Assembly (NCBI GenBank): GCA_030528545.1
Contig: JAUMYR010000002.1
Coordinates: 69,310 to 74,787 of the forward strand
Origin: Propionibacteriaceae bacterium
GTDB taxonomy: Bacteria > Actinomycetota > Actinomycetes > Propionibacteriales > Propionibacteriaceae
DNA: 5,478 bases
Direction of reading: 5' to 3'
Made by a program: the position numbers and the translations under genes. This document shows, in pieces, positions 5,249 through 5,478 of this stretch; position 1 is the stretch's first letter; the number at the start of each line of letters is the position of its first letter. The notes beneath the pieces are model-generated. The model was given only the letters and a program-made list of their open reading frames with translations, ran no database searches and was not told where the DNA came from.

Positions 5249-5269
5249 AGCGCCGGTTTCCCCGGCGCT
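5249..5269. repeat. Perfect 8-bp inverted repeat, possible operator
   Basis: AGCGCCGG (5249-5256) and CCGGCGCT (5262-5269) are exact inverted copies around TTTCC. The right arm ends on the first T of the TATCCT box, so the repeat would fill the -35 to -10 spacer of a plus-strand promoter. A regulator bound there would block transcription of the tRNA-like element. It also lies about 56 bp upstream of the symporter start. It might instead be a hairpin terminator of something on either strand, but no gene ends nearby. Confidence 0.45.
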
Positions 5270-5274
5270 ATCCT
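5269..5274 (+). promoter_or_regulatory. Putative -10 box upstream of the tRNA-like element
   Basis: TATCCT matches the actinobacterial TAnnnT -10 pattern. Transcription would start at about 5281-5283, roughly 17 nt before the cloverleaf. No good TTGACA-like -35 is visible at 16-19 nt spacing; that space is filled by the inverted repeat. This would suit an activator-dependent or alternative-sigma promoter. Confidence 0.35.
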
Positions 5275-5298
5275 GGTGGTCTCGGCGGAGGACGACCA

Positions 5299-5370
5299 CG
5301 GCGTGTAGTTCAGCAGTAGAACACCGGGCTACATTCCCGGAGGGCGCAGGGGCAGCACCTGCCACGCCGG
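5299..5370 (+). ncRNA. tRNA-like cloverleaf RNA with non-canonical loops, function unknown
   Basis: A full cloverleaf can be drawn with every stem perfectly paired. Acceptor: CGGCGTG (5299-5305) with CACGCCG (5363-5369). D stem: GTTC (5308-5311) with GAAC (5319-5322). Anticodon stem: CCGGG (5324-5328) with CCCGG (5336-5340). T stem: GCAGG (5346-5350) with CCTGC (5358-5362). T8, A14, A21, T33, a 5-nt variable loop ending in C48, and C56 are all as in real tRNAs. The departures are in the loops. The T loop is GGCAGCA instead of TTCRANY. The D loop AGCAGTA has AG where G18G19 is expected. The anticodon loop CTACATT gives ACA with T37, an A34 rarely seen in bacteria. G5370 would be the discriminator, and the next bases are CCCC rather than CCA. 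No terminator follows; a ribosome binding site and ATG come 14-26 nt later. It could be a non-translational tRNA, a tRNA mimic bound by a protein, a cis-acting leader, or a decaying tRNA gene. The intact stems argue against decay. Confidence 0.65.
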
Positions 5371-5383
5371 CCCCGAGGTAGAC

Positions 5384-5390
5384 AAGGAGA
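5384..5390 (+). promoter_or_regulatory. Ribosome binding site of the right-edge gene
   Basis: AAGGAGA ends 5 nt before the ATG at 5396, a near-consensus Shine-Dalgarno. It begins only 14 nt after the end of the tRNA-like fold, so folding or processing of that RNA could affect ribosome access. Confidence 0.75.
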
Positions 5391-5395
5391 GTCTC

Positions 5396-5478
5396 ATGGC
5401 TAACGGTTATGTCCACGCCCAATTAGCGAAAGCGCTACTCACCGCGGCGGCTCACGAAGATCCCCAAACCCGGGCCCG
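5396..5478 (+). CDS. Unrecognised protein, N-terminal 27 codons only, cut by the window edge
   Basis: The ATG at 5396 follows AAGGAGA at ideal spacing and the frame stays open to the window end, so this is very likely a true gene start. The visible product begins MANGYVHAQLAKALLTAAHE and continues DPQTRA. It reads as a soluble start with one amphipathic helix (about 6-19) followed by a charged turn, with no signal peptide or membrane segment. That is too little to assign a family, and I give no function. Codon use differs somewhat from the neighbours: it has a TTA leucine codon (5423-5425), rare in high-GC actinobacteria, plus CTA, AAA and TAT. Early codons are often AT-richer, so this is only a mild hint of an accessory gene. 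Its leader contains the tRNA-like element, 25 nt upstream, with no terminator between them. The protein may therefore act with, or be controlled by, that RNA. Confidence 0.75.
   Translation, partial: MANGYVHAQLAKALLTAAAHEDPQTRA

Follow-up and report, generated by a model that had tools for sequence, protein, structure and literature searches.

What does an RNA with the stems and spacing of a tRNA, and with the wrong residues in its elbow, do just ahead of a protein gene in a member of the Propionibacteriaceae? The locus lies near the end of the window, by which we mean the whole stretch of 5,478 nucleotides that was analyzed; the other genes there are glpX, an ABC transporter and a Na+/dicarboxylate symporter. 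The symporter has its best named match, at 86% identity, in a metagenome-derived genome of the Propionibacteriaceae, and the host is therefore probably an uncultured representative of this family. The features that matter for the question are as follows.

5269..5274, plus strand: possible -10 hexamer TATCCT (inspection; in relatives a promoter-like motif abuts the element)
5299..5370, plus strand: tRNA-like leader element, a cloverleaf of 7/4/5/5 bp (Rfam match, minimum free energy fold, family alignment, covariation)
5299-5305/5363-5369, plus strand: acceptor stem (sequence)
5308-5322, plus strand: D arm GUUC-AGCAGUA-GAAC (sequence)
5312..5318, plus strand: D-loop AGCAGUA, with A18-G19 replacing G18-G19 (sequence and family alignment)
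5324-5340, plus strand: anticodon arm CCGGG-CUACAUU-CCCGG (sequence)
5329..5335, plus strand: anticodon loop CUACAUU (C32 and U33 the same in all 100 elements, 34-38 varying)
5341-5345, plus strand: variable region AGGGC (sequence)
5346-5362, plus strand: T arm GCAGG-GGCAGCA-CCUGC (sequence)
5351..5357, plus strand: T-loop GGCAGCA (G54 G55 C56 A57 G58), the altered half of the elbow (GGCRGNN in 99 of 100 elements)
5370, plus strand: G73 (sequence)
5384..5390, plus strand: Shine-Dalgarno-like AAGGAGA before the start codon (inspection)
5396..5478, plus strand: putative start of the orphan protein gene, MANGYVHAQLAKALLTAAAHEDPQTRA..., cut by the window end (translation; N-terminal consensus fitted by eye)

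A sequence-only reading of this DNA had described four perfect stems with the spacing of a tRNA, together with A18, G54, G55, G58, U37 and the anticodon ACA, and the description is accurate in every particular: all 21 of the 21 stem pairs are formed, each residue was found as stated, and G19, C56 and A57 are there as well. In an ordinary tRNA the elbow is held by the G18-U55 and U54-A58 contacts. The covariance-model search that the same reading had proposed gave a match of the Rfam tRNA model RF00005 to 5299-5370 at 46.5 bits (E 7.9e-8), the gathering score being 29. Folded alone, the 72 nt adopt precisely the cloverleaf as their minimum free energy structure (-31.3 kcal/mol, z -2.2; 3 of 200 shuffles did as well), and the resemblance to a tRNA exceeds chance. 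With its flanks (5290-5410) the fold is retained but reaches only z -0.05 against shuffles, and throughout the loci folded, the window included, folds with flanks were no better than shuffles (z -0.05 to -0.96); the minimum-energy fold of L001 lacks the anticodon stem. G73 is followed by CCC, not CCA, and ARAGORN, run on the window, did not call the element as a tRNA. Both the ACA anticodon and U37 are peculiar to the window copy and are not family traits.

The start codon at 5396 lies 25 nt after G73, and the first 27 residues of the peptide fit GYxxxQLARAFxTAxxHEDAxTRxRA by eye, a length too short for a scored match; judged from these residues, the truncated gene probably belongs to the family of helical orphan proteins described below. 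No convincing -35 was seen for the TATCCT hexamer on inspection of the window, and a promoter at this site would possibly give one transcript of element and gene. An 8-bp inverted repeat, AGCGCCGG-TTTCC-CCGGCGCT (window 5249-5269), touches the possible -10 site and sits between the divergent symporter gene and the element, where it may be an operator.

The partnership of RNA and protein became visible in other actinobacteria. A blastn search against plasmids returned six actinobacterial records in which an identity of 82-88% is confined to the element; in five of them an open frame for a protein of 698-808 aa stands directly after the element, and in the sixth (L002) the gene is decayed. A protein scan with one genome per species found 217 relatives, and among the best 80 of the 217, which were kept, the element lies upstream on the same strand in 80/80, with an anticodon loop of 7 nt in 79 and of 6 nt in L034. 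Three wider samples, which overlap, gave the same picture. Within 200 genomes of the family, the element was detected in 33 (E <= 1e-14), the protein in 39 (E <= 1e-20) and the two together, adjacent by their coordinates, in 32. Among the seven genomes with the protein only, five have immediately upstream a variant of the element whose score fell below the cut, and the remaining two hold gene fragments only (148 and 282 query residues matched); overall, the element stands beside the protein in 37 of the 39 protein-matched genomes, and in the single element-only genome the protein gene is decayed. The class sample has the protein in 26/394 genomes and the element upstream in 26/26 (57-100 bits; copies inspected in 19 of the 26), and the phylum sample has them in 4/396 and 4/4. 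The gene is thus patchy (39/200, 26/394 and 4/396 genomes), and no full-length gene without an element was seen among those examined, that is, the 80 loci and the three wider samples.

The element, for its part, keeps to the gene. Copies that score 87-101 bits were found nowhere but at the orphan-gene locus in 17 genomes or records, the next match having 62.4 bits, and in a 296-genome phylum sample the element model reaches 87 bits or more in 2 genomes. When the 28 next-best loci were fetched, all carried a TTC T-loop; 27 look like ordinary tRNAs, and the other, G242, is a family member with a canonical elbow. The gene is decayed or fragmentary in L002, G344, G393, G400, G369 and G489, and the element is retained beside the decayed gene in the first four. 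An element kept beside a decayed protein gene was noted in L132, L135 and L002, which suggests, as far as sequences can tell, repeated loss of the protein. Copy number ranges from one to three, with one copy in 73 of the 86 loci and more in 13. Outer array copies look degenerate in L308 and L316, and maybe one of the two in L309 does. Element and protein would accordingly seem to form one inherited unit in many actinobacteria, and a database and literature search with known gaps found no published description of such an RNA-protein partnership.

The protein itself is about 700-800 aa long, helical, mostly basic (median pI 9.1, range 5.7-10.6, 202 proteins) and uncharacterized. One search of 90%-identity clusters found 2535 proteins at E <= 0.001, and AlphaFold2 gave a confident, nearly all-helical model (pLDDT 92.4; C-terminal half 88.9), for which structure comparison returned no clear fold relative. 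Pfam (4 proteins), PADLOC (3) and PHROG (3) yielded no match up to E 1, NCBIfam (4) only matches far below cut-off, and the PDB none. Since there is no significant domain or fold match, the idea that this protein recognizes tRNA is guesswork based on the leader and the charge. The gene occurs on six plasmid records and stands on its own, no neighbor cluster being common to more than 12 loci. For such an orphan family, the link to a built-in tRNA mimic would offer a first handle on what the protein binds.

Is the tRNA shape maintained? Our counts cover 100 elements from 86 loci, L007 (a phage) and L034 (6-nt loop) being left out, and the alignment for covariation holds 84 distinct sequences, the window and 83 others. 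Across these, 99.8% of cells pair, and changes on both sides are seen in 9 of the 21 pairs and in all four helices, which bears out the earlier claim of a tRNA shape under selection. Compared with 500 shuffles, which ignore the relatedness of the sequences, four of the five covariation measures were reached by none and the fifth (further pair types) by 142. A14, C32, U33, G55, C56 and G73 are invariant in the 100 elements and U8 is present in 98; the conservation of U8, A14 and C56 means that the contacts 8-14 and 19-56 can persist. Variants below the cut and the canonical-elbow clade depart at some of the invariant sites.

The elbow is altered just as consistently. A18-G19 is found in 100/100 elements, and A18 goes with GGCRGNN in 99, the exception being L010, where U54-A58 is combined with A18-G55. 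A divergent clade of seven loci and nine copies carries the T-loop TTCGANN instead, with G18-G19 in 8/9, U73 in 8/9 and an encoded CCA in 3/9; by inspection, its start codon stands behind a Shine-Dalgarno-like stretch. The gene-proximal copy of L329 has the canonical T-loop and a short D-loop without GG, for which reason this locus was labeled by its other copy. The protein tree shows a single change of elbow state, with an SH-aLRT of 100; the tree, built from 46 chosen proteins (partial ones included, the window protein not among them) by a quick method with SH-aLRT only, bears elbow and start labels assigned by hand and is unrooted, so that the direction of the change in actinobacteria cannot be read from it. 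We infer that A18-G55 and G54-G58 form contacts of their own. The sequence-only reading had guessed that 18 and 55 changed together while G19-C56 was kept, and the single switch fits that guess, as do the viral tRNAs discussed below, in which 18 is coupled with 54-55. These leaders thus appear to present a tRNA elbow rebuilt by coordinated changes. Taken together, the element is almost certainly the tRNA-shaped, apparently non-decoding leader of one protein family, with a coordinated elbow switch.

How might such a leader work? Our preferred reading, to which we give a probability of roughly 40%, is that it is a tRNA mimic which is processed, bound by its protein and thereby limits that protein; the case is drawn from sequences. 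The protein would recognize the tRNA shape, and the leader would be a built-in mimic of it. Trimming of the leader in the manner of a tRNA would free the AUG and, in the Streptomyces form, leave a nearly leaderless mRNA, and the mimic, once bound, would restrain the protein, whether through feedback on the mRNA that encodes it or by serving as an antidote RNA. With its elbow altered, the mimic would escape both use among the translating tRNAs and modification at U54/U55, and would still have G19-C56 and the L shape.

The arrangement of promoter and start codon bears directly on the processing step. Upstream of the 85 first copies, with positions numbered from the element, A prevails at -47 and -46 (62 and 65 of 85), T at -39 (66), T, A and T at -16, -15 and -11 (51, 47 and 49) and C at -3 (78), a motif that looks like a promoter from which transcription would begin a few nucleotides at most from the element. 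An AUG or GUG follows nucleotide 73 by 1-3 nt in 83 of the 86 loci and is in frame with the protein in 81. The exceptions to an in-frame start at this distance are two Curtobacterium plasmids, the window, L079 (whose near start is out of frame with the protein match) and L002 (whose gene is decayed); in L001 and L004 the first ATG comes 13 and 11 nt after nucleotide 73, and a later ATG behind a Shine-Dalgarno sequence was taken instead. A spacing of 1-3 nt leaves no room for a Shine-Dalgarno sequence outside the stem. From what is generally known of ribosomes, a folded acceptor stem this near the AUG should be an obstacle to initiation unless it is first cleaved or melted. As in the window, a spacer with a Shine-Dalgarno sequence probably exists in Curtobacterium and in the canonical-elbow clade, and this form would permit initiation without cleavage, so that processing is not needed family-wide.

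These observations would also suit a pure processing module, in which the tRNA shape only recruits the enzymes that process tRNA 5' and 3' ends, a cut after nucleotide 73 creates the near-leaderless mRNA, and the protein never contacts the RNA. The close in-frame start, the abutting promoter-like motif, the seeming irrelevance of anticodon identity and the rarity of CCA at nucleotides 74-76 (6/100 elements) all speak for it. It leaves unexplained the restriction to one protein family, the tandem copies and the forms with a spacer and a Shine-Dalgarno sequence, and we hold it to be rather unlikely. Somewhat less likely still is that the mature tRNA-like RNA is a cofactor built into an RNA-protein machine, there to give it structure or to guide it, as RNAs do in other co-transcribed RNA-protein systems. 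Strict linkage on the same strand and a mostly basic protein are what such a cofactor would lead one to expect, but the 34-38 loop is short and has no excess complementarity to the DNA just upstream or downstream, and the strict spacing to the start codon favors a role in cis.

The anticodon loop raises another possibility. Entropy is 1.35-1.71 bits at positions 34-37 as opposed to 0 at 32 and 33, and 23 different anticodons occur among the 84 distinct sequences, the Gly anticodon UCC in 6 of them; the opal-type UCA is present in 8/100 elements. Adjacent tandem copies differ in anticodon in 14/14 pairs, the rest of the element being 89-98% identical in the nine pairs of equal length. With C32-U33 fixed and 34-38 free to vary, and with the folded acceptor stem adjoining the AUG, the leader might be a bait that mimics many tRNAs: an anticodon nuclease of a phage or rival would cut it, the acceptor stem would unfold, the start codon would be exposed and the protein would be switched on. 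But position 59 is about as variable as the anticodon, whose variation may therefore reflect a lack of constraint; a few copies have 6-nt loops, and single copies are the rule (73 of 86 loci). We consider this sensor quite unlikely.

The same variation argues for the earlier claim that the RNA is no ordinary elongator. The cloverleaf and the spacing of an elongator tRNA are present, while the canonical elbow and an anticodon conserved among orthologs are both absent. ARAGORN, run on 13 loci, called the element in 11 and named seven different amino acids, the calls being Gly, His, Glu, Arg, Asn, Ser, Gln or an unknown tRNA. Gene finders thus hide the element, either calling it as tRNAs of changing identity or passing over it. 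In L001 and L005 the locus-tag numbering has gaps at the element (RS20980 and RS33905 are absent from the CDS table), which suggests that the NCBI pipeline annotated it as a non-CDS gene, perhaps a tRNA. The sequence-only reading had named two observations that would speak against it, namely a want of covarying homologs and homologs with canonical loops that would expose a degraded tRNA; homologs do covary, and those with canonical loops exist in one divergent clade only, where they occupy the orthologous site ahead of the same protein, and are not a source of recent decay. That the element decodes as a real tRNA, or is an ordinary tRNA gene decaying beside a protein gene by chance, is very improbable, for all the ARAGORN calls and the tRNA-like canonical-elbow clade, because the called identity differs between orthologs, UCA and 6-nt loops occur, the stems covary and every examined full-length gene has its element. 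To judge from the sequences, the element looks like neither an elongator nor a decayed tRNA.

To return to the tRNA mimic that limits its own protein, its best support is an asymmetry: elements stand beside dead genes, while no examined intact gene stands without an element. The same asymmetry would equally follow from any strict requirement in cis. A toxin-antidote or defense-like role is the least certain step of the proposal; it is suggested by genes that are patchy, stand-alone, sometimes plasmid-borne and sometimes decayed.

The rebuilt elbow is not confined to these leaders. In viral contigs, A18-GGC was found in 22 stretches (21 of them distinct, two having the same sequence), G18-GGC in 1, A18-TTC in 9 and G18-TTC in at least 120, and with this lower bound the coupling of 18 with the T-loop has a Fisher p of 2.4e-18. 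In the 22 A18-GGC stretches (L147-L168), the full set of 21 pairs is present in 14 and 20 pairs in the other 8; their anticodons are plausible and of many identities, CCA is encoded in 10, and 16 hold three or more ARAGORN calls. A copy in L156 has an amber-type CUA loop. In Erythrobacter phage vB_EliS-L02 (L138), a Val(GAC)-like tRNA with the A18/GGC elbow at 72154-72223 was missed by ARAGORN, which called 32 tRNAs together with a tmRNA across the 15 kb that was read. A tRNA array lies on the Curtobacterium plasmid pS16 (W01) at about 480-491 kb; the plasmid has 24 model matches, and those listed besides the leader fall within about 11 kb.

The elbow residues of the viral tRNAs are identical to those of the leaders. 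The viral copies differ in lying in multi-tRNA stretches, in encoding CCA in some cases, in their plausible anticodons and in having no linked orphan protein that a protein search of the viral contigs could find. Since the elbow also occurs in these functional-looking phage tRNAs, it need not mean exclusion from translation. One could imagine A18/G54-G55-C56-R57-G58 as a second self-consistent elbow that marks RNAs as non-host, by which the actinobacterial mimic restrains a tRNA-directed protein and phage tRNAs escape tRNA-directed defenses or imitate their antidote, a thought that we find quite doubtful. The sharing of one elbow by leaders and phage tRNAs does make the 18-55 and 54-58 rules testable on natural pairs.

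Among known systems, Y RNAs bound by Ro proteins share a tRNA-like module with the element, and an earlier suggestion of such a link found no support: Rfam Y RNA models gave no match in the window up to E 10, and Pfam found no TROVE domain in four downstream proteins up to E 1. As to an RNA-repair context, the window genes are glpX, the transporter and the symporter, and the neighbor clusters are each common to 12 loci or fewer. The non-proteogenic staphylococcal tRNA-Gly, whose anticodon is still that for Gly and which is charged for use in cell-wall peptides, is likewise derived from a tRNA and changed in elbow residues; our element differs in its leader position and, in the window, in its anticodon ACA. 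The Bacillus cereus pseudo-tRNA called tRNA-Other, known from Bacilli and with a Trp anticodon, is another tRNA-shaped RNA apart from translation and has been proposed as a tRNA-like element in a larger regulatory RNA (PMC3399842); in the parts of that account consulted here there is no mention of a rebuilt elbow or of a protein family encoded directly after the RNA (PMC3399842).

Type III ToxIN-like systems resemble the orphan unit in having a small structured RNA, often in tandem, directly upstream of a gene, and the unit is similarly patchy, in some cases plasmid-borne and in some decayed. The toxins of the known systems are much smaller than the orphan protein, the RNA here is a tRNA cloverleaf, and no toxin domain was found: for toxins of the ToxN/AbiQ/TenpN type, Pfam (4 proteins) and PADLOC (3) gave no match up to E 1 and NCBIfam (4) nothing but matches far below cut-off. 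Finally, the bacterial thrS leader contains a tRNA-like operator, a partial mimic of one tRNA for the cognate synthetase, and like our element it puts a mimic of tRNA into the mRNA leader, close before the start codon (for our element, 1-3 nt in 81 of the 86 loci and 25 nt in the window). The element is unlike it in being a full cloverleaf with any anticodon, ahead of a protein in which no synthetase domain was found. By analogy, we think that the thrS mechanism is the most similar one known.
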